IMG/VR virus record: IMGVR_UViG_3300033145_003417
Span: 1 to 27,677 of that record
Reading direction: 5' to 3' (one strand)
DNA: 27,677 bases
Origin: a virus
Notes under the pieces: generated by a model
What the model was told of the DNA's origin: nothing
What the model saw: the letters and a program-made list of their open reading frames with translations, nothing else
Databases searched by the model: none
Program-made: the position numbers and the translations under genes
Part shown: positions 679 through 17,383 of the stretch, in pieces
Position numbering within the stretch: the first letter of the stretch is position 1
How the letters are laid out: each line of letters starts with the position of its first letter

Positions 679-727
679 TATCTGGCAGGGGCAGAAGGAC
701 TTGAACCCTCAACCAACGGATTTGGAG
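679..727. repeat. attL: 49-bp copy of the tRNA-Trp 3' end
   Basis: The block is identical to 10535-10583. Read on the minus strand it ends in CCA at 683 and gives the acceptor 3' strand, the T arm (GAGGG/CCTTC around TTCAAGT), the variable bases and the anticodon loop CTCCAAA, so the anticodon is CCA (Trp). A few more tRNA-like bases (anticodon stem, to about 733) continue only in this copy. There is no D arm or 5' acceptor strand, so this is a fragment and not a working tRNA. Confidence 0.9.
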
Positions 728-843
728 TCCGCTAAGGGCTTTTTTATAATTTTGTATGTAGACGGTTAAGCCTTGATATATAAGGGTTTTTTTAATATCC
801 ATTTTTATTGAAATGGTTATTTTTTTATGATTTTTTACGAATT

Positions 844-868
844 TCTGTCCTAAAATCTGTCTAAAAAA
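844..868 (+). promoter_or_regulatory. left integrase arm-type sites
   Basis: Two adjacent copies of TCTGTCYTAAAA-like sequence (844-855 and 856-868) lie 120-140 bp inside attL. The same motif occurs three more times in the same orientation at 10436-10477 beside the right att repeat. Short direct repeats near both ends of an element are what arm-type binding sites of a tyrosine integrase look like. Binding is inferred. Confidence 0.6.
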
Positions 869-927
869 TTAGGGTTTATTATTGGGGCATTGTACCTTTA
901 GGGGGTTGGGGTAGGAGAGTGCGCTTT

Positions 928-1027
928 GTAAACTATGATCATAAATAGTTAACTTATTAAGAATAAAAAAATATAGTTAAACTTTAATAAAAAATATATT
1001 GACAAGTAAAACTTTGTTTATTAAAAT
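928..1027 (+). promoter_or_regulatory. promoter and repeated operators of the first element-1 gene
   Basis: TTGACA at 999-1004, a 17-base spacer and TAAAAT at 1022-1027 form a strong sigma-A-type promoter. Three imperfect repeats of AGTTAAACTTTATTAA type (946-960, 974-990, 1005-1024) are spaced about 28 bp apart, and the last covers the spacer. GTAAACTA at 928-935 is nearly the inverse of TAGTTAAC at 946-953. The arrangement suggests autoregulation, perhaps by the protein starting at 1060. Confidence 0.6.
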
Positions 1028-1059
1028 ATAACCATAGAAAGTATTTTGGAGGTAATAAA

Positions 1060-1713
1060 ATGGCTAATGAAAATTATATTGGAGTAAAGCTCCCAAAAAA
1101 TGAGGGTGGACTTTTAAGAGAAAGACTGCAAGTAGCTGCAAATAAACATGAAGTTGCTTTAAGCAGATTTTTACTTGATAGTGCTATAGAAAGCATGGAA
1201 ATAGGCGCACAATTCAAGGCAAGTGTAGAAAAACACTTTGAAAGTCTAGGTTGGCCCTGGTGGAAGGTAGTAAAAGCTGTTGTAATAAAAAGAATGGCGG
1301 AAGATGATGCACAGGCGGAAATTTGCGGCCAACGGGAAGATATTTGTGTGGAGTTTATGGAGGTAGACGAAGATTGTTTATATAAAACTATAAAGACAAA
1401 TGAACTTAAAAAACTTGAGCGTGAAGTTGTAGAGCATGCACTTGAAAAAGAATATTACGGGTTAAATCTGGAAGAATTTGAAAGGGAATTATTAATTAAA
1501 TATCGTGTAGGAAAAGCATGGGCAGAATCAGATGAACGTAAAAAAGAACTTGAAATGCAAAAATATGTTGAAGAAATTGAAGCAAAAATGCGTGAAAGTA
1601 TTAAAAATAATCCGGAGGAAAAGGAAAAATACGAAAGATTTAAAGAAAAATATGGCGTAAAAGACGGAAAATTTACGGCATCTTATTGGGAGAATGACGA
1701 GCCGGAGAAATAA
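1060..1713 (+). CDS. hypothetical protein, possible RHH N-terminus
   Basis: I do not recognise this 217-residue protein with certainty. The first 45 residues (a short beta-like VKLP segment, then helices with RERLQVAANKHEV and LSRFLLDSAIE) look like a ribbon-helix-helix DNA-binding fold. The rest is highly charged and helical, rich in Glu and Lys after residue 110, and may form a coiled coil. A GGAGGT site lies 6 bases before the ATG. It is the first gene of element 1 and sits behind a strong promoter with three repeated operator-like sequences, which fits a regulator or a partition-like protein of the element. The DNA-binding role is an inference from fold appearance and position. Confidence 0.6.
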   Translation: MANENYIGVKLPKNEGGLLRERLQVAANKHEVALSRFLLDSAIESMEIGAQFKASVEKHFESLGWPWWKVVKAVVIKRMAEDDAQAEICGQREDICVEFMEVDEDCLYKTIKTNELKKLEREVVEHALEKEYYGLNLEEFERELLIKYRVGKAWAESDERKKELEMQKYVEEIEAKMRESIKNNPEEKEKYERFKEKYGVKDGKFTASYWENDEPEK

Positions 1714-1777
1714 GGCTTAAAATATTAAGATTTACTACTACTAAACCTTAATTTACCATAAAGGAAGGTAGGAAGAA

Positions 1778-1948
1778 ATGCCAGAAAAAAAACCTATTAC
1801 ATGCCCTAAATGTGGAAAGCGTTTAAGTGATTGTTTGGGGAAGGTCCATATCGAGGGAGGTTCAATTCTCTCCTGGTGTAAAAAATGTAAGACCGAAATT
1901 GAAATATACGGCGATTGTAAAACAAGAATACCGGAAAAAACTGCATAA
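1778..1948 (+). CDS. Com-like small zinc-finger protein
   Basis: This 56-residue protein has CPKCGKRL near the N-terminus and WCKKCKTEIEI in the middle, a CxxC...CxxC knuckle laid out like the Com family (phage Mu Com is a zinc-finger protein that binds mom mRNA and activates its translation). It starts at an ATG preceded by GGAAGGTAGGAAG and ends just before a strong terminator, so it closes the first transcription unit of element 1. An RNA-binding, translational-control role is a family-based inference. A generic zinc ribbon cannot be excluded. Confidence 0.6.
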   Translation: MPEKKPITCPKCGKRLSDCLGKVHIEGGSILSWCKKCKTEIEIYGDCKTRIPEKTA

Positions 1949-1964
1949 ATACAAAGAGCCTAGA

Positions 1965-2003
1965 GCCTGGTAAATAGATTATAGTTATTTACCAGGCTTT
2001 TAC
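1965..2003 (+). terminator. rho-independent terminator after the Com-like gene
   Basis: GCCTGGTAAATA pairs perfectly with TATTTACCAGGC (12 bp, 9-base loop), followed by a T-rich tail. It separates the regulatory genes from the replication genes. Confidence 0.85.
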
Positions 2004-2024
2004 TTTATTTAAGGGGTGATTATT

Positions 2025-2216
2025 TTGAGTCAGAGAACCAAAATGCTACCGGCGGAAGCGGCTGAATACATAGGCTGCCGGTATTCTAAATTAATGCAGA
2101 TGGTCCGGTTGAAGCAGCTCCCACATTACCGGATCGGGAGAAGAGTTTTATTCACGAAAGAAGCCCTTGATCTATGGATCGAGAACCAGGAGCGGCAGTC
2201 AGTGCAAAATTGTTAG
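2025..2216 (+). CDS. small HTH protein (excisionase/AlpA-like)
   Basis: The 63-residue protein fits the MerR-like HTH_17 family: PAEAAEYIGCRYSKLMQMVRLKQLPHYRIGRRVLFTKEALDLWIE is the usual helix-turn-helix followed by the 'R-I-G-R-R-V-x-F' wing. Such proteins serve as excisionases or as AlpA-type activators of integrase genes. A GTG at 2016 could extend the frame, but AAGGGGTG is ideally spaced for the TTG at 2025, so I choose that. The gene lies directly before the primase gene. A second HTH protein of the same kind sits at 8412 near the integrase, so this one is more likely a regulator of replication genes than the excisionase. Confidence 0.75.
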   Translation: MSQRTKMLPAEAAEYIGCRYSKLMQMVRLKQLPHYRIGRRVLFTKEALDLWIENQERQSVQNC

Positions 2217-2227
2217 GAGGTGGGAAC

Positions 2228-2818
2228 ATGGGATACGCATTAAAAAATGACATATTTGAAACGGTTAAAGAAATCCCACTTGCTGAGCTGGTTAGCCGGT
2301 ACTGTCCGGAAACAAGGTTAAGAGGTGGCAGAATGAGATTAAAAGGTTCATGCCCGCTACATATTGACCGTGATCCTTCGTTTGTTATTTATCCTTCTTC
2401 TAATAGCTGGTACTGCTTTTCTTGCTGTAATGGCGGTGATGGCGTTCGCTTGGTGCAGCTCATTACCGGGTTAAGCCCTTTAGAAGCTGCTAAGTTGATT
2501 ACCAGGGATTTTGGGGTTGGTATTGATGATATTTCCCCTCAGGAGGCACAAAAACGAGCCCGTGAGGCCGCTAAGGAAAGGGAATTAGAAGAACTATTTA
2601 ACCAAAGAGTTACCCAGGCTTATGATGTTCTTTGTTTCTTTATTAGGACCGTAGAACGACACATATTATTAGGGGGTTATGATGCCTATTTAAAGTATAA
2701 CGTTTTGGTTAATAAATTACCTGTTTGGAATTATTTAGCTGATCTTTTGTTATATGGTGATTTGGAAACAAAAATAGAAGTTTTAAAGCTCCCGGAGGTG
2801 AAGGCATGGCTGGAGTAG
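2228..2818 (+). CDS. CHC2 zinc-finger primase-like protein
   Basis: The 196-residue protein carries a DnaG-type CHC2 zinc-binding domain at about residues 20-95: C42-x2-H45, then WYCFSC (C63, C66), followed by GGDGVRLV. This domain reads single-stranded template for primer start sites. No Toprim catalytic core is present; the C-terminal half is helical and unassigned, so it probably works with the helicase encoded next. I choose the ATG at 2228 because GGAGGTGGGAAC precedes it; the frame is open further upstream but overlaps the HTH gene. Its last 13 bases overlap the helicase start, indicating translational coupling. Confidence 0.85.
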   Translation: MGYALKNDIFETVKEIPLAELVSRYCPETRLRGGRMRLKGSCPLHIDRDPSFVIYPSSNSWYCFSCCNGGDGVRLVQLITGLSPLEAAKLITRDFGVGIDDISPQEAQKRAREAAKERELEELFNQRVTQAYDVLCFFIRTVERHILLGGYDAYLKYNVLVNKLPVWNYLADLLLYGDLETKIEVLKLPEVKAWLE

Positions 2819-4221
2819 GTAGAACCTTATTAAAGGCTGTTAAAAAAGATCCTGAGCTGGCTAGTATGCTGGATACTTCCAAGGGAAAGCCGCAAACAGA
2901 TATTTCAGATGCAATTTGCGCTAATAAATTTATTGAGATACATGGGAACAAAATTAGATACTGCCACGCATACAAAAAATGGTTCATTTATGACGGTGCA
3001 AAATGGGCCGTTGATGATAGCGAGAATATTTATAACCTGGGGCTAGATGTTGCTAGGTATTACTATCAACAGGCCCAAAACACTGATGATATTGAATATG
3101 TTCGTAAGTTTGGGCAGATTGGCTTAAAACTTACTAATAACCGGAATATTTACAACTTTGTAGAGGCTGCCCGGAGGTTGCCGGGGATTCCTGTTAAATC
3201 GGATGAATTAGATCAAGATATTTATAAGCTTAATACTTTAAATTGCACTATAGATTTAAGGAACGGGAACAGATTAAAGCATAATCCCAAGGATCTTATA
3301 ACTAAAATGGTTAATGCCCAATATAGACCAGATGCGGAATGTCCTACCTGGTTAAAATTTCTTAATCGTATTATGGATGGTAATCAGGATCTAATAGATT
3401 ACTTGCAACGATTGGCAGGTTATTCCTTAACCGGCGATACTTCAGAGCATAGCTTATATATTCTCTATGGTACGGGCCGGAATGGGAAAAGCGTTTTTCT
3501 TAATACCTTGCTTTATGTCATAGGTAACTATGGCAAGCAAATTCGACCAAGTATTTTACTTGAAAAATATAATGATAATTCCAGCAATGATATTGCCTCA
3601 TTGAAAGGGATAAGGTTTGCTACAACTTCGGAAATAGAAGAAGGTAAACGAATGGCAGAGGCGACAGTTAAAAGCCTAACTGGAGGAGATGAGGTAAGCT
3701 GCAGGTTCTTATATGGTGAATATTTTACATTCAGGCCACAAGCAAAAATATTCCTTGGCACGAATCATAAACCGAATATTCGGGGAACTGATGTAGCTAT
3801 CTGGGAACGGATTCACTTAATACCGTTTACTCAATATATCACTGAGAAGGAACGGGACAAACACTTATTTGAAAAGCTAATAGCCGAGGCTGATGGTATC
3901 CTATTATGGGCCGTGGAAGGCTGTTTGGCATGGCAAAGTGAGAGCCTTAATCCCCCAGATATTGTGAGAAATGCGGTTAAATCATACCGTGAAGAAATGG
4001 ATGTTTTGGCTAATTTTATAAATGAGTGCTGTATTATTGCCAGTTATGCCAAGGTGCAATCAGGGAAGCTATTTGAAAAATATCAAATATGGTGTAGAGA
4101 GAACGGAGAAACAGCTATAAATCAGAGAAAATTCGGAATGCGACTTAAAGAAAAGGGCTTTAATAATATCCGTGGTACTGGTGGAAGGTATTTCTGGGAA
4201 GGTATAGGGATAATTGAATAG
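2806..4221 (+). CDS. D5/P4-family replicative helicase
   Basis: This is a 471-residue phage/plasmid primase-helicase of the P4 C-terminal (D5) type, a superfamily 3 ATPase that opens the element origin. A D5_N-like region spans about residues 40-190. Walker A is GTGRNGKS (residues 222-229), followed by DIASLKGIRFATTSEIEEG (Walker B/B' area) and the sensor-type segment FLGTNHKPNI near 325. The C-terminal 80 residues look like a winged-helix DNA-binding domain. The zinc-finger part of the primase is a separate upstream gene that overlaps by 13 bp. The stop codon overlaps the first iteron of the putative origin, so protein and binding site travel as one cassette, as in P4 and SaPIs. Confidence 0.9.
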   Translation: MAGVGRTLLKAVKKDPELASMLDTSKGKPQTDISDAICANKFIEIHGNKIRYCHAYKKWFIYDGAKWAVDDSENIYNLGLDVARYYYQQAQNTDDIEYVRKFGQIGLKLTNNRNIYNFVEAARRLPGIPVKSDELDQDIYKLNTLNCTIDLRNGNRLKHNPKDLITKMVNAQYRPDAECPTWLKFLNRIMDGNQDLIDYLQRLAGYSLTGDTSEHSLYILYGTGRNGKSVFLNTLLYVIGNYGKQIRPSILLEKYNDNSSNDIASLKGIRFATTSEIEEGKRMAEATVKSLTGGDEVSCRFLYGEYFTFRPQAKIFLGTNHKPNIRGTDVAIWERIHLIPFTQYITEKERDKHLFEKLIAEADGILLWAVEGCLAWQSESLNPPDIVRNAVKSYREEMDVLANFINECCIIASYAKVQSGKLFEKYQIWCRENGETAINQRKFGMRLKEKGFNNIRGTGGRYFWEGIGIIE

Positions 4222-4327
4222 TGAACCAAGTGAACCTAGTGAACCTTATTTACATTGTTTACTTTACAAGTTATCTCTATAGGGACTTTCCTAAATATCA
4301 TTCACTTCGTTCACTTGGTTCACTATT
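4220..4327. repeat. iteron origin of replication of element 1 (putative)
   Basis: Three tandem 9-bp units of AGTGAACCN begin at 4220, 4229 and 4238. Three units of the inverse, TTCACTTSG, begin at 4301, 4310 and 4319. They face each other across 54 bp of AT-rich DNA. SaPI origins have the same plan (two iteron sets flanking an AT-rich stretch, next to the rep gene), and P4-type helicases bind such repeats. Origin function is inferred from this layout. Confidence 0.7.
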
Positions 4328-4351
4328 AGGAAAAAGTTAGGAGATAAAACA

Positions 4352-4423
4352 ATGAAATTCATAGAAATTAGACTTACAAAATGCAGATTATACCTAACTA
4401 AAAAAAATAAAGAGGTGAAATAA
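4352..4423 (+). CDS. 23-residue leader ORF before the tape-measure gene
   Basis: A short frame begins at an ATG 7 bases after AGGAGAT and ends in TAA one base before the tape-measure ATG. The GAGGTG site of the tape-measure gene lies inside its last codons. The peptide is basic (many Lys, Arg) with no recognisable motif. Ribosomes translating it would pass through the next initiation site, so translational coupling is possible. It may be non-functional. Confidence 0.35.
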   Translation: MKFIEIRLTKCRLYLTKKNKEVK

Positions 4424-4424
4424 A

Positions 4425-6056
4425 ATGGCTGAAAAAAAATTAATGGTTGTAGTTGGGGCCAATATAACTGATTTTCAAAAGAAAATGAATGAAACAAGTA
4501 AAACCCTTACAAGAATGTCTCGAGATGCTCAAAAATCATTTGGGCCTATCATGAATACGATCGGAGCAGGATTAAAAATAGCTGGAGCAGCGGCGGCAAC
4601 AGGGTTTGGAGCTGTTGTGGCTGCTGGGTTTAAAATGAACGCAGAACTAGAACAAAGCAAAGTAGCTTTTACCACAATGCTTGGATCTGCCAAACAAGCT
4701 GATCAATTTTTGCGCCAGATGAGAAATTTTGCCGCTCGTACCCCGTTTGAGTTTAATGAATTGCAGGGAGCGGCGAAGAAAATGCTAGCCTTTGGCTTTG
4801 CCGCCCAGGATGTAATACCAATGATGACTGCCGTCGGTGATGCTGTTGCGGGTCTTGGTGGTGGGCAAGAAATGATTGACCGAGTAACAATGGCCATGGG
4901 ACAAATGAAAGCTAAAGGCAAAGTATCTGCCGAAGAGCTAATGCAGCTTGCTGAAGCGGGTATCCCTGCTTATGAAATTCTACAAAAAAAACTTGGCTTA
5001 TCCGCAGATCAAATTGCGAATATTGGTAAAGAGGGAATCAATGCAGATAAAGCCATTAAAGCCCTCTTGGAAGGAATGGAAGAAAAATTTGGCGGCATGA
5101 TGATTAAGCAATCAAAAACCTGGGGTGGATTGTGGTCTACATTAAAAGATAATGCCGCAATTTTTATACAGGAAATAACAGGGCCTATATTTGAGGCGGC
5201 TAAAACAAAATTAGCTGGACTAATGGATTATATTGCAAAGTTAGAAGAAAACGGAACATTGAAACAATGGGCCAATAACATTGCTAAAAACATTAAGTCT
5301 GTGTGGGATGTTGTCAATAATGCATTAAATGGATTAATTCAGGCGGGGAAGTTTATCTATGATCATTGGAATTTAATTGGCCCTGTTGTTGCTGGAGTGG
5401 TTGCGGGATTTATGGCATTTAAAACTGTAACAACCGTGATTAATGGTGCAAAAGTAGCGATGGCAGCTCTTAATTTAGTTATGAATCTGAACCCTATAGG
5501 CATTGTTGTACTTGCTGTAACAGCCTTGGTAACTGCCGGAGTACTGCTGTATAAAAATTGGGATACGATAAAAGCCAAGGCCGCTGAATTATGGATCGGT
5601 TTAACAGATGCCTTTAATGGCATAAAGAAAACCGTTGTTGGTGTTTGGAATAGCATAGTTGCGAATATCAAAGGCGCTATTAATAGCATTATCAATTCAA
5701 TAAATGGATTTATTGGCTCAATTAATACTATAAAAATAAAGGTTCCTGCTGTTAATATTCCACTGGTTGGCACGGTGGGAGGGTTTAGCATTGGATTACC
5801 ACAAATACTTAAGATCCCTAATATCCCCATGCTTGCCCAGGGGGGCATAATAACCAGACCCACATTGGCAATGATTGGGGAATCTGGGCCAGAGGCGGTT
5901 GTGCCTTTAAACAGAAGTAATTATAGCAGTTATGGTTTAAAGATAAGTGGTCCTCTTGTGTATGTAAATCAAGTAAGTAGCGATTATGACGTTGAGCGCA
6001 TGGGAGAACAGTTTGTCAAAGTGCTCCGACGAAAAGGGGTGCCGGTTGGAGTCTAA
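4425..6056 (+). CDS. phage tail tape-measure protein (short)
   Basis: This 543-residue tape-measure protein would set tail length and act as scaffold for tail-tube assembly. Residues 75-210 match the tape-measure N-terminal domain (SKVAFTTMLGSAKQADQFL, FAARTPFEFNEL, GKVSAEELMQLAEAGIPAYEIL). Hydrophobic segments at about 318-380 follow, and the end has the typical AQGGIITRPTLAMIGESGPEAVVPL motif, so the gene is complete. Tape measures are often longer; by the usual scale of about 1.5 angstrom per residue this one fits a tail of roughly 80 nm. No tail-tube, chaperone or baseplate gene lies nearby, which is very unusual. The start follows GAGGTGAAATAAA. Confidence 0.9.
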   Translation: MAEKKLMVVVGANITDFQKKMNETSKTLTRMSRDAQKSFGPIMNTIGAGLKIAGAAAATGFGAVVAAGFKMNAELEQSKVAFTTMLGSAKQADQFLRQMRNFAARTPFEFNELQGAAKKMLAFGFAAQDVIPMMTAVGDAVAGLGGGQEMIDRVTMAMGQMKAKGKVSAEELMQLAEAGIPAYEILQKKLGLSADQIANIGKEGINADKAIKALLEGMEEKFGGMMIKQSKTWGGLWSTLKDNAAIFIQEITGPIFEAAKTKLAGLMDYIAKLEENGTLKQWANNIAKNIKSVWDVVNNALNGLIQAGKFIYDHWNLIGPVVAGVVAGFMAFKTVTTVINGAKVAMAALNLVMNLNPIGIVVLAVTALVTAGVLLYKNWDTIKAKAAELWIGLTDAFNGIKKTVVGVWNSIVANIKGAINSIINSINGFIGSINTIKIKVPAVNIPLVGTVGGFSIGLPQILKIPNIPMLAQGGIITRPTLAMIGESGPEAVVPLNRSNYSSYGLKISGPLVYVNQVSSDYDVERMGEQFVKVLRRKGVPVGV

Positions 6057-6112
6057 AATGGCAGAGGGGTAAGCCCCTTCCATTCTCCAAGGCCTTTTCG
6101 CTCTTGACCGTT

Positions 6113-6151
6113 GGGACACTCTAATGCGAGAAAATGTCCCCGAATTTTTTT
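6113..6151 (+). terminator. terminator after the tape-measure gene
   Basis: GGGACA (6113-6118) pairs with TGTCCC (6135-6140), with an inner CTC/GAG helix, and seven Ts follow at 6145-6151. A smaller AGGGG/CCCCT hairpin lies upstream at 6064-6077. The same 5' strand, extended to TGACCGTTGGGACA, could instead pair with TGTCCCAATGGTCA near 6207-6220, so two structures compete. Confidence 0.6.
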
Positions 6152-6218
6152 AAAGTGGCAATATTTAAAAAAAATCCTGATTTTGGGAAAAAAACTCACA
6201 CGATGTTGTCCCAATGGT

Positions 6219-6420
6219 CAGGAAGAATGAGGTAGTGAAGAATTACCTACCCCTCCTAAAGTTTTGAGCTAACCCCAAAATTCTAATAACCAAAGCCTAC
6301 TTGGTGGATGGTGTTACCAGATGGAGCATTAATGAAGCAAGTAGGAGCGTAAACTTGCAGATGTAAGTTGAAGTTCTATGGTCCAGATGGACCAGGAGAG
6401 AACACGCAGAAGTTTAGGGA
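6219..6420 (+). ncRNA. structured leader RNA with three AGAT-loop hairpins
   Basis: There is no gene in the 400 bases between the tape-measure and capsid genes. The second half folds into several local hairpins: AGGTAGT/ATTACCT (near 6230-6248); CCTACTTG (6296-6303) with CAAGTAGG (6338-6345), which encloses a hairpin at 6309-6331; AACTTGC/GTAAGTT (6352-6369); and TGGTCC/GGACCA (6379-6394). The last three all close a tetraloop AGAT with a C-G pair. Repetition of one loop on unrelated stem sequences suggests recognition by a protein. It lies in the 5' leader of the capsid gene. I match it to no known RNA class; a free-standing RNA or a cis-acting leader are both possible. Confidence 0.55.
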
Positions 6421-6456
6421 AGTATCTCAAAAAATAAAGAAAGGATTGATAAATTT

Positions 6457-7869
6457 ATGGAATTTACAAAAGAAAACTTTAAAAATTTAAACAAAAAACG
6501 TAATAATTACATGAAAACAGCTCTTGATGTATATGAAAAAAACACGAATGAAAACGGAGAGTTTAAAAACTCGGCTGCTGAAACTGACTTTTTAAGACTG
6601 CTTCAAAAAATAAATGATACTTACGACGGTATTCAAAACATGGCCAAGGTTGTTGCTCCGGGCCATGATTATAGCTTTATGTCAAAATGTATAACCGGTA
6701 TTGAAGGACTAAGAGCTGCTATTGAGGTGGAGGGCTCAACGCCGGTGAATTCCCCGCTTTATCCTCAGCCAAAGAGTCATGGAGCAGATGAAGAAGGCAA
6801 AGGCGTTTGTTTAACTGCTGAATCTAAAAAGTTTAAAAACATGTTTGGCAACAGCCTTTCCAACGGTGGGTTTAGGAGCTTTAATGACTACCTAAAAACG
6901 GTGCATTCAGGCCGGTATGATGAAAGGCTTGGTGGTGGTTTCCGGAATGCAATGACTGAAGGGGTGCCCTCAGAGGGTGGTTTTGCGGTTCCTGAAGAGT
7001 TTGCCGCTTTCCTAATGGATAATTCCTTAGAGGGTGAAATAGTACGGCCTAGGGCGCAAGTATGGCCCATGAAATCAGAAGTAAGAAAGATCCCGGCATG
7101 GGACGGAAACGATCACAGCTCCAGCCTATTTGGAGGACTCTCCGGCGTATGGCTAGCTGAAGGTTCAACAGCAACCAGGCAGCAGGGCAAGCTTCGATTA
7201 ATGCAGTTAACTGCTAATAAGCTGGCTTGTTTCTCCCAAGCTTCAAATGAGCTCCTGGCTGATGGTATGAACTTTGAGGCCCAGCTTGGCAATGCTATGA
7301 TTAAAAGCTTAAGCTGGTCAATGGACTATGCTTTTATTAATGGTGATGGAGTCGGTAAACCGTTAGGCATGTTAAACGGTCCGGCTTTAATAACTGTATC
7401 TCAAGAGAGTGGGCAAGCTGCAGGAACAATTGTATATGAAAACCTAATCAAAATGTTTGCTAGATTGGCACCTCAATGTATTAAAAATGCCGTTTGGCTT
7501 GCCAATCCTACCACTATTCCGAACCTCCTAACGCTCTCTATTCCAATTGGTACAGCTGGAAGTGCCATACCTGTAATGAGCGAGAGTAACGGTCAATTTA
7601 AGATATTGACTGTACCTGTTATTTTTACGGAAAAAGTACCTTCCCTGGGGAATAAAGGGGATATATCCCTAGTAGATTGGTCTCAGTATGCTATTGGATT
7701 AAGAAAAGAAGTATCTCTTGACAAGTCCAATGCCCCCGGGTGGACTGAAGATATAACCGATTACAGGACCATTATCAGAGTAGATGGGCAAGATACCTGG
7801 GATAAGCCAATTACTCCTAAGAATGGGGATACTCTTTCCTGGTGTATCACTCTTGAAGCAAGGCAATAA
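6457..7869 (+). CDS. HK97-family major capsid protein
   Basis: This 470-residue protein has the hallmarks of the HK97 fold. The N-terminal helical, charged region (to about residue 150) resembles the delta scaffold domain. Next come the PSEGGFAVPEEF segment that begins the mature shell protein, the WLAEGS element, and the FINGDGVGKPLGML motif typical of the family. Length and both ends indicate a full gene. A GAAAGGA site lies 12 bases before the ATG, a little long. No protease, portal or head-completion gene accompanies it, so assembly would need partners supplied from elsewhere. A satellite could use such a protein to build shells of its own size. The downstream terminator at 7950 closes the unit. 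Confidence 0.92.
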   Translation: MEFTKENFKNLNKKRNNYMKTALDVYEKNTNENGEFKNSAAETDFLRLLQKINDTYDGIQNMAKVVAPGHDYSFMSKCITGIEGLRAAIEVEGSTPVNSPLYPQPKSHGADEEGKGVCLTAESKKFKNMFGNSLSNGGFRSFNDYLKTVHSGRYDERLGGGFRNAMTEGVPSEGGFAVPEEFAAFLMDNSLEGEIVRPRAQVWPMKSEVRKIPAWDGNDHSSSLFGGLSGVWLAEGSTATRQQGKLRLMQLTANKLACFSQASNELLADGMNFEAQLGNAMIKSLSWSMDYAFINGDGVGKPLGMLNGPALITVSQESGQAAGTIVYENLIKMFARLAPQCIKNAVWLANPTTIPNLLTLSIPIGTAGSAIPVMSESNGQFKILTVPVIFTEKVPSLGNKGDISLVDWSQYAIGLRKEVSLDKSNAPGWTEDITDYRTIIRVDGQDTWDKPITPKNGDTLSWCITLEARQ

Positions 7870-7882
7870 TTAAGTTTACGGT

Positions 7883-7924
7883 TTGGTAAGTGGAGGGGTC
7901 TGGGCAACCTGTTTTACTTACCAA
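7883..7924 (+). other. hairpin in the 3' UTR of the capsid gene
   Basis: TTGGTAAGT (7883-7891) and ACTTACCAA (7916-7924) form a perfect 9-bp stem with a 24-base loop. No T tract follows at once, so it is not itself a terminator. It may protect the capsid mRNA end. Confidence 0.4.
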
Positions 7925-7949
7925 TGGTTATATTTAATCCTCCTGTCTA

Positions 7950-7993
7950 GGGCATCAGTGGGTTATTGGTTTTTCTGCTGGTGCCCACTTTTT
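7950..7993 (+). terminator. terminator of the capsid unit
   Basis: GGGCATCAG (7950-7958) pairs with CTGGTGCCC (7978-7986), with one G-T pair, and ACTTTTT follows. Confidence 0.7.
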
Positions 7994-8012
7994 AAGAAAG
8001 GGGAGGGGACTA

Positions 8013-8339
8013 ATGGCTTAACTCCGGTTATGAGGTAGAAAAAGTTTGATACCATTAATACCGTCAGTTTAGAAAACGGAAAATTCCGTTCTCTTGATTT
8101 CTTCATTCCAAGTACATACCAGGATGCCAAGGGAGAACCAATCCAGTTTTGGATTCAGTGAAATTACCAAGGGAACCAAGCCATATTTGGATTGGTTGAA
8201 TAAAGGGTGTAGTTTTAACCGACACCCTTTGAAAGGTATTTCTAAGTTGGGAATACCGTCAGTTAAACCGACGGAAAGGGTTGTATTTAAAAAGGCACCC
8301 TCAGAAATTCTTAGGGTGACCATTTATGATAAATTTTAA
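8013..8339 (+). pseudogene. frameshifted gene remnant downstream of the capsid gene
   Basis: A good Shine-Dalgarno site (GGGGAGGGG) precedes an ATG at 8013 that hits a stop after two codons. A different frame from 8042 encodes a plausible segment (FDTINTVSLENGKF, LDFFIPSTYQDAKGEP) up to a stop near 8160. The frame opening near 8094 continues with FSEITKGTKPYLDWLNKG to the stop at 8339. The whole looks like one protein broken by at least two shifts or stops. I cannot name the family. Two stem-loops inside it, AAAGGGTGT/ACACCCTTT near 8204-8232 and CACCCT/AGGGTG near 8297-8319, mean a non-coding explanation remains open. Confidence 0.4.
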
Positions 8340-8350
8340 TAAATAATGTA

Positions 8351-8378
8351 TTGACTATCTATGGATATATATGATAAT
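8351..8378 (+). promoter_or_regulatory. promoter of the excisionase-like gene
   Basis: TTGACT (8351-8356), a 16-base spacer and GATAAT (8373-8378) lie 34 bp before the ATG at 8412. Short GGATATA repeats around it may be binding sites of the HTH protein itself. Confidence 0.5.
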
Positions 8379-8411
8379 ATATGAATAAATAAGGATATAA
8401 GGGGGTGTAAA

Positions 8412-8585
8412 ATGGGATTAGAAAGCTTGCCAGATATTCTTACCGTAAAAGAACTAGCTGAATTTTTAAAGATTAGTGAATCTACTATTAGGAGGGCGAT
8501 AAATAACGGAGAGTTAAAGTCATTTAAGGCCGGAAAAAATGTAAGGATCGAGAAAGAAGCAGTAATTGAATGGTTAAAAAAATAA
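8412..8585 (+). CDS. excisionase-like HTH protein
   Basis: The 57-residue protein of the excisionase/HTH_17 family contains LTVKELAEFLKISESTIRRAINNGELKSFKAGKNVRIEKEAVIEWLKK: a winged HTH with the usual 'tRR' recognition helix and a C-terminal 'W-L-K-K' helix. Excisionases bend DNA at att arms and turn the integrase toward excision. It lies in the integrase module, behind its own promoter and before a hairpin, so it is the best candidate for the Xis of element 1. It was too short for standard gene lists, but the start (GGGGGTGTAAA before ATG) and full-length family match are clear. Confidence 0.8.
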   Translation: MGLESLPDILTVKELAEFLKISESTIRRAINNGELKSFKAGKNVRIEKEAVIEWLKK

Positions 8586-8623
8586 AAGGAACCCGACACC
8601 TGGACAGTGTACCCGGATTCCTT
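8586..8623. terminator. hairpin terminator after the excisionase-like gene
   Basis: AAAGGAACCCGACAC pairs with GTGTACCCGGATTCCTTT, with small bulges, around a CTGGACA loop. A/T runs on both sides could make it work in both directions. Confidence 0.55.
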
Positions 8624-8721
8624 TACCAGCACGACCCCGAAGGGCAGAGCTTAATTTTATTATAGCCTACCTTCTGGGGAAAAATCAAACAATTTTTTAA
8701 TTTTAAGGAGGCTACCATACT

Positions 8722-9045
8722 ATGACCGATCAAGAATTATTTATTTTAGGAAAACAGCTAGTACCGTTTAAGGAAATTCATAATATATCAGATATTATGA
8801 ATTTAGACCTAAATAGCAGCCCGGTGTTTAATGCATCGCTGGTCTATCAGTACGGCTTTATCCAGGGCAAACGAGCCGAAAGGCGCAGGCGGAAAACCAG
8901 CGGTGAAATGTCCGGCATAGACGCTAAACAATGCCTTAAAGATATTATTGTGAGACTGCCTGAAGAAAATGTCGAAAAGTTATTGAAGTTTATCGAAAAT
9001 CTTAAATCTATCGAAGAAGACGGGGGCAAAAACGATGGATATTAA
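8722..9045 (+). CDS. hypothetical protein in the integrase operon
   Basis: I do not recognise this 107-residue protein beyond a general likeness to small Firmicute phage proteins. It has a central YGFIQGKRAERRRRK basic patch, which could bind nucleic acid, and an acidic, helical C-terminus ending in EEDGGKNDGY. AAGGAGG precedes the ATG with normal spacing. Its last 11 bases overlap the next gene, which in turn overlaps the integrase, so the three genes form a tightly coupled operon. The role may be accessory to integration or lysogeny, but nothing in the sequence shows it. Confidence 0.65.
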   Translation: MTDQELFILGKQLVPFKEIHNISDIMNLDLNSSPVFNASLVYQYGFIQGKRAERRRRKTSGEMSGIDAKQCLKDIIVRLPEENVEKLLKFIENLKSIEEDGGKNDGY

Positions 9046-9238
9046 AGTTCTTCAAGAAATGAAAACCTCTGCTGAGGCAGAAATAAATGAAATAGAGAAC
9101 TGGCTTCAAAGGGATGGAAATTTAGCACCAGCCAGTGTGCGCTTTGCAATTTATCGAGGAATTGAATCAGTCAAAGGGCGGGTGGACTGGCTGGATAGTA
9201 GAATTACCAAGGAGCTGATGAAATGGCCGGTAACATAG
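9035..9238 (+). CDS. small helical protein coupled to the integrase
   Basis: The 67-residue, mostly helical protein has no family match that I recognise. A helix runs over residues 1-27 (MKTSAEAEINEIENWLQ) and a second over 37-65. It overlaps the gene before it by 11 bp and the integrase after it by 16 bp. GGGGG precedes its ATG. Translational coupling with the integrase suggests it is made in similar amounts; a helper role in recombination is only a guess. Confidence 0.6.
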   Translation: MDIKVLQEMKTSAEAEINEIENWLQRDGNLAPASVRFAIYRGIESVKGRVDWLDSRITKELMKWPVT

Positions 9239-10413
9239 TAAAAATAAAAGAGGGAAGTTACAGGCTTAGATATAAGGATTATTCTAAATATGTAAAGGCT
9301 AAGAATGACAGCCAAGCGGGGAAGCTACTTGCCGCATTTATTACCGATATTGAGGCTGGGGACTTTAGCCAGCCATCAAAGATTACCTTTAGAGAATTTG
9401 CTCAAAAGTGGCTGAAAGAATATGCAGAAATAGAACTGGCACCTAAGACGGTTTTTAGATATAAGCAACTGCTGGAAAGTAGGATATACCCGGCTTTCGG
9501 GGATAAGAAATTAGACAGAATTAGACCGCTGGAACTGGTAGAGTTTTATAATAGTCTTCGGAAAAAGCATAAATATATGAGTGTGCTAAAGGACGGAACC
9601 CGGGAGACCAAAGATTCTGAGCCATTGTCTGAAAGCACAATCAGACACCATCATCGGTTAATTTGTGCGATATTTGAGAAGGGTATTAAATGGGGCATAA
9701 TAAAGGGCGCTAACCCGGCCAAACGTGTTGATGCTCCCAAGCAAGAAAAGAAAAAGGCGAAATGTTACGATGAAAAGCACGTCCAGGCTTTACTGGATGC
9801 CTTGGAGAATGTCGATCTGGAGGATCTTAAGTATAAAGTTGCCACCATGATTGCAATAATGACAGGGGCCAGATTAGGGGAAATAATGGGCCTAGAATGG
9901 CAAGATATTGGCTTTGACAACAAATTAATAGAGATCCGGAGATGCAGCCAGTATTTGCCGGATCGAGGTACATTCACTAAGGGCACGAAAAACTATACGA
10001 GCACACGGAAAGTATCCGTTAATAATACTCTTTTGGATCTGCTGGAAGAATACCGGGAGGATCAGAGGAAAAAGGGCTTTATATGCCAGGACAACAATCG
10101 GCTATTTGTTACCTGGGACGGAAAGCCGATGCACCCTTACACGGTAACGAAATGGTTTCCGGATTTCCTGGAACGCAATAAGCTACCCAAGTTAAACTTT
10201 CACGGACTGAGGCATACCAGTGCTACGTTTTTAATAAGCAAAGGCATGGACATTGAAACGGTGGCAGGCCGCCTGGGGCATAGTACCTCAGCCACAACAC
10301 AGAATGTTTACAGCCATTTTTTGGAGAGTAAAGACAAGCAGGCCGCCAAGATGATTGAAAGGACCTTTGGAAAAAAGAAAAATGTTAGTAAGACCAAAAA
10401 GGGTGCGAAGTAA
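9223..10413 (+). CDS. int: tyrosine recombinase, integrase of element 1
   Basis: This 396-residue tyrosine integrase should recombine the element attP with the tRNA-Trp 3' end. An N-terminal arm-binding region (about 1-50) is followed by a SAM-like core-binding domain (about 55-160) and the catalytic domain. Visible active-site residues are R217 (TGARLGE), H327 and R330 (HGLRH), H353 (GRLGHS) and the nucleophile Y363 (NVYSHF). The ATG at 9223 follows AAGGAG with 8-base spacing. It lies about 120 bp from the right att repeat, with three arm-type repeats between, and reads toward the att site. The basic tail is normal. A terminator overlaps its last codons. Confidence 0.95.
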   Translation: MAGNIVKIKEGSYRLRYKDYSKYVKAKNDSQAGKLLAAFITDIEAGDFSQPSKITFREFAQKWLKEYAEIELAPKTVFRYKQLLESRIYPAFGDKKLDRIRPLELVEFYNSLRKKHKYMSVLKDGTRETKDSEPLSESTIRHHHRLICAIFEKGIKWGIIKGANPAKRVDAPKQEKKKAKCYDEKHVQALLDALENVDLEDLKYKVATMIAIMTGARLGEIMGLEWQDIGFDNKLIEIRRCSQYLPDRGTFTKGTKNYTSTRKVSVNNTLLDLLEEYREDQRKKGFICQDNNRLFVTWDGKPMHPYTVTKWFPDFLERNKLPKLNFHGLRHTSATFLISKGMDIETVAGRLGHSTSATTQNVYSHFLESKDKQAAKMIERTFGKKKNVSKTKKGAK

Positions 10414-10428
10414 ATTCGTACCCTTTTG
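10395..10428 (+). terminator. integrase terminator
   Basis: AAAAAGGGTGCGAA pairs with TTCGTACCCTTTT across GTAAA, one mismatch. The 5' arm lies in the last codons of the integrase gene. Confidence 0.8.
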
Positions 10429-10435
10429 TCTACGG

Positions 10436-10477
10436 TCTGTCTAAAAATAAAAATCTGTCTAAAATCTGTCCAAAAAA
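10436..10477 (+). promoter_or_regulatory. right integrase arm-type sites
   Basis: Three copies of TCTGTCYAAAA begin at 10436, 10454 and 10465; the last two are directly adjacent with an 11-bp period. They match the two copies near the left att repeat in sequence and orientation, as expected of integrase arm-binding sites at both ends of an element. Confidence 0.6.
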
Positions 10478-10488
10478 GTCCAGGTAGT

Positions 10489-10524
10489 AAAAAAGCAAGA
10501 CTCTCGATTCCCGAAAGCCTTGCT
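10489..10524 (-). terminator. terminator carried by element 1 for the tRNA gene
   Basis: On the minus strand AGCAAG-type arms pair with inner CT..TCG/CGA..AG bases, and a T run follows. It stands about 13 bases downstream of the CCA end in the right att copy. Element 1 therefore brought both a replacement tRNA 3' end and a terminator for it. Confidence 0.75.
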
Positions 10525-10534
10525 ATTATTGACT

Positions 10535-10583
10535 TATCTGGCAGGGGCAGAAGGACTTGAACCCTCAACCAACGGATTTGGAG
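10535..10583. repeat. attR of element 1 / attL of element 2
   Basis: This 49-bp block is identical to 679-727. The tRNA homology stops at 10583, and again there is no 5' half, so this is not a complete tRNA. A second integrase begins 77 bp further on, so the site is the junction of two tandem elements. The complete tRNA-Trp gene is expected at the far right end of element 2. Confidence 0.88.
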
Positions 10584-10659: not shown

Positions 10660-11772
10660 TTACTCTTCCTTTTTCTTCTTAGTTTTTAGAATCTGCTCAA
10701 ACAGTTCCGCACTTCTTTCCTGGCTGTTAGGCAGCACATGGGCATATATATCTGACGTGGTAGATGCCCTCTCATGTCCAAGGCGTTCCTGGACAACGTT
10801 TAATTGTTCGCCAGCGGCAAGAAGCAGGGAAGCATGAGTGTGCCGGAGCGAGTGGAAAGTTATGTTTAATCCTGCTTCCCTGGCTATCTCCTTAAACCGG
10901 TTGTCAAAGTTGGTAGGGTCGTAAGATTTCCCTGCGTGAGGGCCTTCGGGAATGCAAAAAACGTAATCGCTTATTCGCGGTAAACTTTCAAGCAGAGTAA
11001 CAATCTCGTTTGAAATTTTTATTGTGCGGTAACTTGATGACGTCTTGAGTATATCCTGGAGATCAATACCTTTCCCTTTTATATACTGCAGCTGCTTTCT
11101 GACATAAACCAATTTTTCTTTTGTTTTCACATTCTCCCACAGTAACCCTAAAACCTCTCCTAGGCGCATACCGGTACGCAAGGCGAAGAATATAACAGGG
11201 TATTCACGCTTATTCTTTGCAGCTTCCAAGAGCGTTTCTGCCTGTTCCGGCGTCAAAAATTTAGCTGGTCGCTTCTGAACTCTTGGTTTATCTATTGCTT
11301 CAACCGGATTATGACTGATCAAATGAAGCCGTACAGCAGCTTTTAAGGCCTGGTTTAGAATAGATAGATGGTATTGTACTGTTCGATTGGATTTTTTAGC
11401 ATTTAATTTCTCATTCTTATATCTTTCTATGGCCAGGGGTTGGAGCTGTGATAGATTGATATTACCTAAACTTGGTATTAAGTGCTTTTTCACTATCATT
11501 TCATAACTTTCATACGTTCTGGGAGCAATGTTCGCCTTTTTCCCCTCCAGCCAATGTTTTAAATGCTCTCCAACAGTAATCTTATTTGGCTGAATATACG
11601 TGCCGTTTTCTATTTCATAGATCATTTTACGCATGATTTTTTCTGCATCGCGTTTTCTACTTGTCTTGACAGATTTAGTTATCCTTATCCGTTTATCCTC
11701 ATGATCCCGGCCGGCGTCAATGACAATGGTATAAGAGCTATCATAGCGCTTTTCAATGTGTCCTGTTGCCAT
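10660..11772 (-). CDS. int: tyrosine recombinase, integrase of element 2
   Basis: This 370-residue tyrosine integrase has an AP2-like arm-binding N-terminus (about 1-60, with RYDSSYTIVIDAGRD), a SAM-like core-binding domain (about 65-165) and the catalytic domain. Active-site residues are R203 (RTGMRLGE), H307 and R310 (HSLRH), H333 (ERLGHE) and Y343 (DIYAHV). TAGGAGG precedes the ATG by 9 bases. The gene abuts the att copy at 10535-10583 and faces it. It is a different lineage from the element 1 integrase (different arm-binding domain and linker), although both use the same tRNA-Trp end. It lies 12 bp downstream of the ImmA-like gene in one leftward operon. Confidence 0.95.
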   Translation of the reverse strand: MATGHIEKRYDSSYTIVIDAGRDHEDKRIRITKSVKTSRKRDAEKIMRKMIYEIENGTYIQPNKITVGEHLKHWLEGKKANIAPRTYESYEMIVKKHLIPSLGNINLSQLQPLAIERYKNEKLNAKKSNRTVQYHLSILNQALKAAVRLHLISHNPVEAIDKPRVQKRPAKFLTPEQAETLLEAAKNKREYPVIFFALRTGMRLGEVLGLLWENVKTKEKLVYVRKQLQYIKGKGIDLQDILKTSSSYRTIKISNEIVTLLESLPRISDYVFCIPEGPHAGKSYDPTNFDNRFKEIAREAGLNITFHSLRHTHASLLLAAGEQLNVVQERLGHERASTTSDIYAHVLPNSQERSAELFEQILKTKKKKEE

Positions 11773-11784
11773 TAGCTAGTCCTC

Positions 11785-12333
11785 CTATTTACTGATTGTG
11801 TACTCTTCTTCGTTTTCGGCAACCTGACAGGTTCCCATGCGTACGTTGAACAGCTCTCGCCCCTTTACTTTCAGCCCCTGCCGTCTGAAGCTATCTTTTA
11901 AAAACCCCAGTTTTCTGTATACTACCCATTCGGTTACGTCAAAATATTCTGCTATCTCGTAGCAAGACCAGTAGCCTTTTTCCATGGCCTTGCATAGCTC
12001 AGCATCTGGTATCAGGAAATCGCATGCCTTGCGGAGCGCCTTGCGCTCATCCTGGCCCATGACGATGGTCTCGTTACACTCGCCGTATCTTCTATAGCTT
12101 CGGTAGACTTCTCTGACATCTGTTCTGGGGTAGGTCAGGGCGTGGAATACTTCTTCAGCCAGTACGCATTTTTGTTCTCGTAGACGGTATCTAAGGGTCT
12201 CATCCAGAAGTATGGCGGGACCGGCGGCTATGTACAGACCCCACAGTTTTGGGTGCCGCTGGGTGAGGGGCGCGAAATCGACAAACACATCCCGATCTTT
12301 TGCCAACTGCCAAAGATAATCTAACTTGTCCAT
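11785..12333 (-). CDS. ImmA/IrrE-like protein
   Basis: The 182-residue protein resembles the ImmA/IrrE (DUF955) family, metallopeptidases that cleave phage repressors on induction. The N-terminal half has VFVDFAPL, GLYIAAGPAILLDETL and CVLAEEVFHAL. The last stands where HExxH is expected but reads E-E-x-x-H, a variant seen in phage members, so zinc binding and protease activity are uncertain. The C-terminal half contains a HTH-like segment (YEIAEYFDVTEWVVYRKL). GGGAGG lies 5 bases before the ATG at 12333, so I prefer it to the TTG 15 bases upstream. Its position between repressor and integrase is the standard one for ImmA. Confidence 0.8.
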   Translation of the reverse strand: MDKLDYLWQLAKDRDVFVDFAPLTQRHPKLWGLYIAAGPAILLDETLRYRLREQKCVLAEEVFHALTYPRTDVREVYRSYRRYGECNETIVMGQDERKALRKACDFLIPDAELCKAMEKGYWSCYEIAEYFDVTEWVVYRKLGFLKDSFRRQGLKVKGRELFNVRMGTCQVAENEEEYTISK

Positions 12334-12352
12334 CCTGCCCTCCCGCAATCGA

Positions 12353-12544
12353 TTATTTCAGCCGCTTAAGAATGACTACTTCTTCTTCCTGGCCGGTTAA
12401 TCTCTCATCTAGCTTTTTGATGTCATCCCAAATATACCTCAATTCTTTTCGGATATCCTGCTGCCCTTGTTTTAAATCCTTAATGTCGCCCTCCATACCG
12501 GTTACTTTTTCAAGCAACAGCGCCAGCATTTCTTTTTCGGTCAT
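12353..12544 (-). CDS. small coiled-coil protein of the repressor operon
   Basis: The 63-residue protein is almost entirely heptad-like helix (LLLEKVTGMEGDIKDLKQGQ, IWDDIKKLDERL), as in many small proteins found beside phage repressors in Bacillota. It starts at an ATG whose A is the last base of the repressor stop codon, with AGAGGGGTGA upstream, so it is translationally coupled to the repressor. It may multimerise or modulate the repressor or ImmA-like protein, but that is inferred from position only. Confidence 0.65.
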   Translation of the reverse strand: MTEKEMLALLLEKVTGMEGDIKDLKQGQQDIRKELRYIWDDIKKLDERLTGQEEEVVILKRLK

Positions 12545-12894
12545 TAACTATCACCCCTCTCTTTCTTTTCCCGTTCTTCCCGCCACTTGGCGGCTTTTTT
12601 TACTGCTTCTGATATAATGTCCTCCAGATCGGAGAGGTCCTCACCCATGAGGCCTTCGTGGTGGGCGGCAATGGGGCCGGAGGTAAATTTACGCTCATTT
12701 GTTCGCCCTAGAAGATAGTCAATAGAGCAGTTAAAGAAATCAGCTATCTTACTAAGCTTCTCAAAGTCTGGTTGTTTGCCTTTTGTTTCGTACCCAGCAA
12801 TAGTAGGTCTGCCGACTCCTAAATGTTCGGCTAATTCCTCTTGCGTTATGCCTTTTCCCTCGCGAAGTTCTTTTAAACGTTTTCCGAAATCCAA
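12544..12894 (-). CDS. CI-like XRE repressor
   Basis: The 116-residue protein has an N-terminal XRE helix-turn-helix: GKRLKELREGKGITQEELAEHLGVGRPTIAGYETKGKQPDFEKLSKIADFFNCSIDYLLG. The charged C-terminal 50 residues are helical and probably dimerise; there is no LexA-type protease domain, so induction likely goes through the ImmA-like protein encoded downstream. The start is a TTG at 12894, 7 bases after GGGAGGTG. It is divergent from the Cro-like gene, with three repeated operators between them. Role by context: maintains lysogeny by shutting the rightward promoter. Confidence 0.88.
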   Translation of the reverse strand: MDFGKRLKELREGKGITQEELAEHLGVGRPTIAGYETKGKQPDFEKLSKIADFFNCSIDYLLGRTNERKFTSGPIAAHHEGLMGEDLSDLEDIISEAVKKAAKWREEREKKERGDS

Positions 12895-12932
12895 ATTTTA
12901 GCACCTCCCTCTAAGATATTATTTTACTACTG

Positions 12933-13026
12933 AATGTTTCTAAAATAAACATTTAAAAAGTTAATGTGTCTATAATGAACATTTTTTACTATAGCCATTG
13001 ACAATGTGTCTAAAGGGAACTATAAT
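12933..13026. promoter_or_regulatory. CI/Cro operators and perfect early promoter
   Basis: Three related 21-bp operators lie at 12933-12953, 12963-12983 and 13003-13023. The pattern is AATGTKTCTAWAATRAACATT; the first is a dyad AATGTTT/AAACATT around 7 bases, and the third is more diverged. The rightward promoter is consensus in both boxes: TTGACA at 12998-13003, 17-base spacer, TATAAT at 13021-13026. The third operator fills its spacer, so bound repressor would block RNA polymerase. Confidence 0.8.
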
Positions 13027-13067
13027 AAAATAAAAGGTTCCCTTGGGGCACTAAGGTGGTGAGACAC

Positions 13068-13475
13068 GTGAGAGAAAACTTAAGAAACAAAAGGCTGCAA
13101 ATGGGATTAACTCAAGAAGAAATGGCTTCACGAATTGGAATAGAGCGAAGTACCTATACAAACATTGAACTAGGTCGTAAGAATCCATCTCTTGCTGTAG
13201 CACTGAAAATTAAGGAGATTTTACAAACCCAAGACGATAAAATTTTTTTGAACAATGAGTGCCAAAAGGGAACATTTAAGAAAGAATTTGGAAGATATAA
13301 ACCCAGGGTATTAGAGAAAATACTCCAGCGCAAAGAAAAGGAACTTACAGAAGCCGAAAGGTCACCGTGCATAGGGAGCGGTGGATTGTTAGCGCTGGAG
13401 ACCGAGGTAGCAGCCATAAGAAAACTGCTCAAAGAATGTGAAAAAAAGTACAGATGCAGCGGTATCGGTAAATAA
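13068..13475 (+). CDS. Cro-like XRE regulator
   Basis: The 135-residue protein has an N-terminal XRE HTH (MRENLRNKRLQMGLTQEEMA, SRIGIERSTYTNIELGRKNPSLAVALKIKEIL) and a longer C-terminal half with a basic helix and two Cys near the end. I start at the GTG at 13068, with AAGGTGG at 8-base spacing; a GTG pair at 13056-13061 would add four residues. It is the first gene behind the perfect early promoter. By context it is the antagonist of the CI-like protein, switching the phage to lytic growth. Confidence 0.82.
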   Translation: MRENLRNKRLQMGLTQEEMASRIGIERSTYTNIELGRKNPSLAVALKIKEILQTQDDKIFLNNECQKGTFKKEFGRYKPRVLEKILQRKEKELTEAERSPCIGSGGLLALETEVAAIRKLLKECEKKYRCSGIGK

Positions 13476-13530
13476 ATAACCGCTAGCCAATCAACTGGCA
13501 CCGACGGGCGGTAAGGGAGGAGGTGAAAAC

Positions 13531-13737
13531 ATGAAAGCACTTTACGATTACGATCGAAAGGAGATTAACGTCCTGAGAGAAGCATCTGAAGAAATAGTGG
13601 AGTTGATAGTAAAGAAGGGCTTGAGCTACGAAGCAGCCAGAGAAGTACTTCGTGATGCTCAAGCAAAGCTAGAACGATTTCCTTTAGTTAATCCTTATTC
13701 ACCAGATGTGCAAGGTTCTCATGGATCTGATAAATAA
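13531..13737 (+). CDS. small early phage protein
   Basis: This 68-residue protein is not recognised. It is mostly helical (ALYDYDRKEINVLREASEEI, LSYEAAREVLRDAQAKLER) with a disordered C-terminus. The Shine-Dalgarno site GGGAGGAGGTG is strong. It follows the Cro-like gene in the rightward early operon, where such small proteins often have regulatory or host-takeover roles. Confidence 0.65.
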   Translation: MKALYDYDRKEINVLREASEEIVELIVKKGLSYEAAREVLRDAQAKLERFPLVNPYSPDVQGSHGSDK

Positions 13738-13934
13738 GGCAACCCCTGGAACTTTCCCACGAAAACCATGCGCATTCGGCACCAGTGCATTTAGCTTTGA
13801 TAAGCGGACAGATGCCATCTTTGTTAAACATGGGCAAACACCTCCCTTCTGAAGAATGGTTGCTCTGGCAAGTTTATCCATTCTTCAAGGAAGACCGTAT
13901 TCCTGTTAATAAGAAGGAGAAAGGGGGTGAGAGG

Positions 13935-14117
13935 TTGGAGAAACTTGTCTACTCGGTAAAGGAAGTGATTGAGCTTACGGGGTTGTCCAAGTCAACGGTT
14001 TACGAACTAATGAGGGCGGGTGAGATGCCTTCCGTGCAGCTGAGCGAGAGACGCAAGGGTGTGCCGCGTAAGGAGCTGGAGTTGTGGTTGAAAGAGAGGA
14101 CACGGAAGGCAATTTAG
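13935..14117 (+). CDS. HTH_17 DNA-binding protein
   Basis: The 60-residue protein of the excisionase/MerR-like HTH_17 family reads YSVKEVIELTGLSKSTVYELMRAGEMPSVQLSERRKGVPRKELELWLKERTR. The frame is open back to 13785, but AAGGGGGTGA sits 4-5 bases before the TTG at 13935, and the family normally starts here, so I choose TTG. An alternative ATG at 13830 lacks a ribosome site. It may be the excisionase of element 2 or an early regulator. It is separated from the preceding gene by about 200 bases in which I see no convincing gene. Confidence 0.72.
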   Translation: MEKLVYSVKEVIELTGLSKSTVYELMRAGEMPSVQLSERRKGVPRKELELWLKERTRKAI

Positions 14118-14184
14118 CCCCGGGGGCTGCGAAAGACGGGAGGAAATGCAACTGATTAAAACTCGTAAAAGGAGAAGCAAAACG

Positions 14185-14499: not shown

Positions 14500-14516
14500 A
14501 AAGGAGGCGAGTTAAA

Positions 14517-15190: not shown

Positions 15191-15195
15191 ATAAT

Positions 15196-17374: not shown

Positions 17375-17383
17375 GGTAATAAT

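Follow-up and report, generated by a model that had tools for sequence, protein, structure and literature searches.

Three same-loop hairpins define a conserved, apparently undescribed candidate leader RNA before the capsid gene of a PICI-like satellite

In the viral DNA analyzed here (27,677 nucleotides of IMG/VR record IMGVR_UViG_3300033145_003417, the whole of which is called the window), the word CAGATG occurs at 6318, 6358 and 6384, shortly before a capsid gene, and each of these copies is the tip of a hairpin. This raises the question of whether the locus is an accident of composition or a functional RNA and, if functional, what it would do. The positions given by the first-pass annotation and its three stems (TGGTGTT-A-CC/GG-AGCATTA, AACTTGC/GTAAGTT and TGGTCC/GGACCA) are borne out by the window sequence and its fold. 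CAGATG is enriched across the whole window (22 copies compared to 9.8 expected); therefore, three copies by themselves mean little and the hairpins are the unusual part. The elements of the locus are the following:

6296-6345, + strand: window-specific outer stem enclosing hairpin 1 (CCTACTTG at 6296-6303 with CAAGTAGG at 6338-6345)
6309-6412, + strand: whole conserved RNA according to covariance model R1 (105.9 bits)
6309-6331, + strand: hairpin 1, UGGUGUU-(bulged A6316)-CC-AGAU-GG-AGCAUUA, with the AGAU loop at 6319-6322
6344-6352, + strand: invariant linker GGAGCGUAA, whose GCGU (6347-6350) forms the 5′ side of the junction helix
6352-6369, + strand: hairpin 2, AACUUGC-AGAU-GUAAGUU
6369-6375, + strand: invariant linker UGAAGUU, kept in three homologues
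6373-6377 and 6399-6403, + strand: helix GUUCU/AGAAC of the window fold, belonging to the shared structure
6379-6394, + strand: hairpin 3, UGGUCC-AGAU-GGACCA
6404-6407, + strand: ACGC, which completes the junction helix on its 3′ side, within the invariant stretch AACACGCA
6440-6445, + strand: AAAGGA, which probably serves the capsid gene as ribosome binding site and is not part of the structured RNA

The MFE fold of 6296-6412 (-41.7 kcal/mol, z -5.5, 0/200 shuffles) places AGAU at three tips. Three hairpins with one tetraloop and differing stems appeared in none of 300 dinucleotide shuffles of the window leader and in three of 5623 control windows, which were the homologous leader L151 and two GC-rich windows (0.70 or more). 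A second, MFE-based scoring also gave three hairpins each for the window and L151 (0/200).

The search of genome contigs with a capsid alignment retrieved two close relatives: L151, from a Bacillota MAG (capsid 66% identical to that of the window), and L152, from Desulfosporosinus sp. BRH_c37 (69%). Both carry the same leader directly before the capsid gene, with loop-to-start-codon distances of -136/-97/-72 and -135/-95/-70, respectively, compared to -138/-98/-72 in the window, and the end of the RNA lies about 45-48 nt from the capsid start in all three. The AGAU loops, GGAGCGUAA, UGAAGUU and AACACGCA are invariant across the three homologues and an AACACGC linker is also kept; all 12 loop positions are invariant compared to only 26 of the 58 paired columns. 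Model R1 scores L151 at 94.0 bits and L152 at 90.4 bits. The 8-bp outer stem described by the first-pass annotation is present in the window, but L151 has a continuous 11-pair stem instead and L152 has none. Likewise, the region 6219-6420 that had been delimited contains the unit, of about 6296-6412, but its first part (6219-6295) lies outside the conserved element. A long imperfect inverted repeat of about 118 nt (TTGACCGTTGGGACA / TGTCCCAATGGTCAG) is found upstream of the conserved RNA, at 6105-6222 of the window; no such repeat was seen in the upstream regions of L151 and L152, and this one is possibly a separate element.

In the shared structure, a three-way junction closed by GCGU/ACGC bears hairpin 2 as well as hairpin 3, the latter on the GUUYU/ARAAC helix. 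In each of the three homologues, a single 5′ base of hairpin 1 (A, U or G) is left unpaired two pairs beneath the AGAU loop. In the three-sequence alignment, which was hand-built with N padding for length differences and is biased toward the structure although the lengths nearly match, 92% of the cells pair, both sides have changed in 12 of the 31 pairs (mean of 4.4 in shuffles, with 0/500 reaching this value) and pairing falls to 33-46% when the partners are slid by 1-3 columns. Helix 1 shows the most covariation (7/9 pairs); the junction helix never varies and is thus uninformative. Hairpin 2 covaries with L151 (GCCUAAC/GUAGGGC); it is only partly formed and mostly broken in L152, whereas it is well formed in the other two. 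Folded by itself, L151 adopts the shared structure (z -5.2 to -6.7). The fold of L152 alone is not significant (z -0.25 to -0.95), the second scoring finds one hairpin in it, and the forced shared structure lies 0-3 kcal/mol from the MFE in each homologue. The first-pass annotation had taken one loop on different stems as a sign of selection and had proposed covariation in homologous leaders as a check; the covariation observed here, with the AGAT loops retained, supports this reading.

The stems contain eight G-U pairs and folding is more favorable on the + strand than on the - strand, which indicates a sense-strand RNA. No reading frame is conserved across the three leaders, and short upstream ORFs starting from the AUG-containing loops were rejected because their frames are not conserved. 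Neither a terminator near the RNA nor a sigma-70-like promoter upstream of it, on the same strand and close by, was found in the window. The ribosome binding site lies outside the predicted structure, so that the fold gives no sign of a simple occlusion switch, and no alternative fold sequestering this site was seen.

No Rfam 15 family matched at the gathering threshold, in line with the first-pass impression that the element resembles no riboswitch or ribozyme; at a relaxed E-value, the best match (E 0.09) lay on the opposite strand, its score falling far short of the gathering value. Among 88 loci, R1 matches only the window, L151 and L152. In 83 genomes of the class, the only convincing matches were in the genomes of L151 and L152, with a single copy each, and among a phylum-wide sample of 399 genomes only that of L152 matched, in a search that scored 10 candidates per genome and could miss weak members. 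In neither set was the RNA found away from a capsid gene, and its one copy per genome differs from the many copies per genome of REP/BIME elements. With the leaders as blastn queries, phage and plasmid records yielded chance matches only, and nothing on such an RNA was found in the literature searched. In viral contigs, single-protein searches for the capsid and primase found nothing and the capsid-alignment search gave two 26% matches. Pattern searches of these contigs yielded only rejected candidates: at least 120 stretches for the three-CAGATG DNA pattern, read as coding repeats; 26 chance matches for GGAGAGAACACGCAG; six apparent coding chance matches for linker patterns; none for another linker pattern; and 112 matches for a further one, from which R1 was applied to 99 loci (L262-L360), none of them giving a convincing score. 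L246 (21.9 bits with R1) was rejected as apparent coding sequence devoid of the loops. Overall, this leader RNA is almost certainly real and conserved, and apparently undescribed.

The capsid gene that follows the RNA belongs to an integrated island whose main features are:

679-10583, no strand assigned: satellite island of 9.9 kb, between 49-bp direct repeats (679-727 and 10535-10583) resembling the 3′ part of a tRNA
1060-1713, + strand: ribbon-helix-helix-like regulator, recognized by eye, with no family match
2016-2216, + strand: HTH_17/AlpA-excisionase-like protein, 69% identical to one in L152
2174-2818, + strand: CHC2 zinc-finger protein of the replication module
2806-4221, + strand: D5/P4-type primase-helicase of the replication module
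4425-6056, + strand: short tape-measure-like protein of 543 aa (TMP_3 match)
6457-7869, + strand: major capsid protein with HK97 fold (Phage_capsid PF05065, 3e-36; structural model; PDB matches)
9223-10413, + strand: tyrosine integrase of the island, with 66% identity to its L152 counterpart

The model of the capsid protein (mean pLDDT 79) matches HK97-fold capsids, including that of the cf-PICI EcCI2. The sister island of L152 (9.0 kb) is integrated in tRNA-Leu(CAA) with a 58-bp repeat, and the RNA is common to both islands, as are the capsid (69%), the AlpA-like HTH protein (69%) and the integrase (66%). In neither of them was a portal, protease or terminase recognized. In 679-10583, the capsid and the tape measure are the only recognized structural genes, and several ORFs have no match. 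The tape-measure-like gene lies directly before the capsid leader, and no other tail gene was recognized in the island. As judged from its anatomy, the island is a PICI-like satellite: (i) it is integrated, with an integrase and att repeats, (ii) it carries its own replication genes (CHC2 and D5 helicase) and an AlpA/Xis-like regulator (HTH_17), and (iii) its complement of recognized head, tail and lysis genes is incomplete. It also differs from cf-PICIs, in which the head and packaging genes are complete, since no portal, protease or terminase was recognized. PICIs with a capsid gene are already known (PMC6092414, PMC10111431). A second, separate element directly follows the island (10660-27677) and, with its minus-strand integrase, repressor-like genes, helicase and terminase large subunit, looks like a prophage.

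The leaders of more distant satellites were also inspected. L157 (Desulfobacteraceae) encodes a ribbon-helix-helix-like protein, a CHC2 primase, a D5 helicase, a terminase small subunit homologue, a capsid and an integrase, a layout matching that of the window island. Its leader (5534-5784) carries the hairpins G(UUAU)C, G(UGAU)C and G(UUAU)C, each followed by AGCGGC, and two identical loops were reached in 2/300 shuffles. L260, like L157 a satellite of Desulfobacterota, shares 60% capsid identity with it and also carries a terminase small subunit homologue; three CGAU-loop hairpins on different stems (0/300 shuffles) occur in its leader, which an unannotated 95-aa frame overlaps. The second scoring found two hairpins each in L157 and L260 (4/200). 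These two arrays, which are single-sequence results without covariation among several leaders inspected, are supporting evidence, not proof. In L260, two identical CCCC-ACAACT-GGGG hairpins occur besides the three CGAU ones (5554-5833 of G500:C97), and a promoter-like TTGAAA-17-TATAGT was seen by eye just upstream of the leader. No same-loop array was found in the leaders of the higher-GC relatives L153, L154, L183 and L191 nor in those of the Bacillota relatives L240-L243. Two candidates seen by eye were rejected: three weak C-G-closed GGGAY-loop hairpins in L261 (G623, reverse complement of 3574-3838), which blind scoring did not support, and two different-stem hairpins in L378 (G724, reverse complement of 458-648), for which blind scoring was negative; the latter have near-identical 15-16-nt loops (AUCGCCGG..CGCUCU). 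Gaps of about 180-590 nt precede the capsid genes of this family in L153, L154, L157 and L191, whose contigs carry integrase or recombinase genes together with primase or helicase genes and whose hosts belong to Acidobacteria, Proteobacteria and Desulfobacterota; the capsid-bearing satellites of this family are apparently a wide set. Same-loop arrays with differing loops in distant satellites suggest a wider control layer of satellite capsids.

What would such a leader do? On balance, we lean towards a cis-acting 5′ leader of about 115 nt whose hairpins would bind one protein and thereby control the expression or assembly of the capsid. Its transcription as a leader, the binding of a protein, the identity of this protein and the direction of the control are what we infer from the comparisons above. 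Identical loops on unrelated stems point to one recognizer used three times. That the RNA keeps a fixed distance from the start codon of the capsid gene favors a cis-acting leader over an independent ncRNA, and the fixed place before the capsid gene together with the absence elsewhere favors control in cis. The RNA would be transcribed as the 5′ part of the capsid message of the satellite and would present three C(AGAU)G recognition hairpins on unrelated stems, in a layout fixed by the three-way junction and the linkers. One protein, or an oligomer, would bind all three loops, and this binding would set the timing or the amount of capsid protein or couple its synthesis to assembly. The loop-loop contact that had also been envisaged is unlikely among these three hairpins, since AGAU is not self-complementary.

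The likeliest partner would be the capsid protein of the satellite itself, with a factor supplied by the helper phage or the host in second place. The capsid protein is the simplest candidate because capsid and integrase are the sole genes recognized in all whole array-bearing elements, a comparison leaving out L151, a short contig without integrase; its identification as the binder is nevertheless tentative. Somewhat more doubtful is the generalization that HK97-fold capsids of DNA satellites read RNA hairpins in their own message, with a co-evolving loop (AGAU, CGAU, UUAU/UGAU). Should the capsid protein be the partner, a specific mode of RNA recognition would exist among shells of the HK97 fold and might serve tagging or RNA loading. 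The leader sits where the satellite must time its replacement shell.

Other functions have been weighed. The hairpins of the capsid mRNA could nucleate shell assembly or bring RNA into the particle, as MS2 and other ssRNA phages assemble by means of repeated coat-binding hairpins (PMC4751978). The geometry of hairpin 1, with a single bulge two pairs below a 4-nt loop, is MS2-like, and the element has no recognized structural genes besides the capsid and the tape measure. However, known phage members of the HK97 fold package DNA by terminase, and the terminase small subunit homologues of L157 and L260 point to DNA packaging by the helper machinery, so that we regard an assembly or packaging signal as unlikely.

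Satellites gain by interfering with helper phages, and sponge RNAs such as CsrB/RsmZ typically carry one loop several times; the leader could thus give rise to a trans-acting RNA titrating a host or helper protein. The constant spacer of about 45-48 nt before the capsid start in three homologues, the lack of any copy away from a capsid gene in the genomes searched and the absence of the CsrA motif (GGA in the loop) make this quite improbable. An equally poor candidate is a DNA element (cos/pac, replication origin or recombination site) mimicking RNA hairpins: satellites do require packaging and origin sites, and cos sites occur in PICIs (PMC6092414), but the G-U pairs, the strand asymmetry and the constant spacing to the start codon argue against it. 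As for a riboswitch-like leader sensing a small molecule or an ion through its three-way junction, the conserved linkers surrounding this junction would fit, but neither a terminator nor an alternative fold sequestering the ribosome site was seen, triple identical loops are atypical and the RNA is so far limited to one satellite lineage; we consider it very improbable. Chance hairpins or an unconstrained repeat, to which the frequency of CAGATG in the window might point, are contradicted by the single copy per genome and by the covarying hairpins of the homologues and can practically be dismissed.

The cis-acting capsid leader that we favor can be compared with several known systems. Like GOLLD, ROOL and other Rfam phage-borne RNAs, it is a structured RNA in a phage-like element, but it is about 115 nt long and has no Rfam match. 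It shares with CsrB/RsmZ and multi-site RNA operators the use of one loop motif on several hairpins with different stems; it differs from CsrB/RsmZ by its position in cis before a capsid gene and by its loops, all of which are AGAU and none of which has the GGA motif found in the hairpin loops of CsrA-type leaders. The island itself resembles EcCICFT073, PmCI172 and SaPIbov5 (about 10 kb, integrase, att repeats, AlpA-like HTH protein, own replication, and a capsid homologue unaccompanied by the other genes of the head operon), whereas it differs from capsid-bearing PICIs by its tape-measure gene. In the Escherichia coli PICI EcCICFT073, another gene lies directly before the capsid gene and there is no such leader; since this leaves no room for one, the leader is not general to PICIs. 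The coat operator of ssRNA phages has an ANYA loop consensus and a bulged A. Like the MS2 TR hairpin, the window hairpins would lie in a viral mRNA in association with a coat gene, have 4-nt loops and form several sites per RNA, and the bulge of hairpin 1 is two pairs below the loop in 3/3 homologues, hairpins 2 and 3 being inconsistent in this respect. Unlike it, they have an AGAU loop, a bulged base that varies (A, U or G), a position well upstream of the start codon and a putative coat partner that is the HK97-fold capsid of a DNA satellite, not a levivirus-type coat protein. Hairpin 1 therefore recalls the MS2 operator by likeness, not by membership, and recognition of the leader by the capsid protein would operate in the manner of the coat operators (or of RNA packaging) in ssRNA phages.
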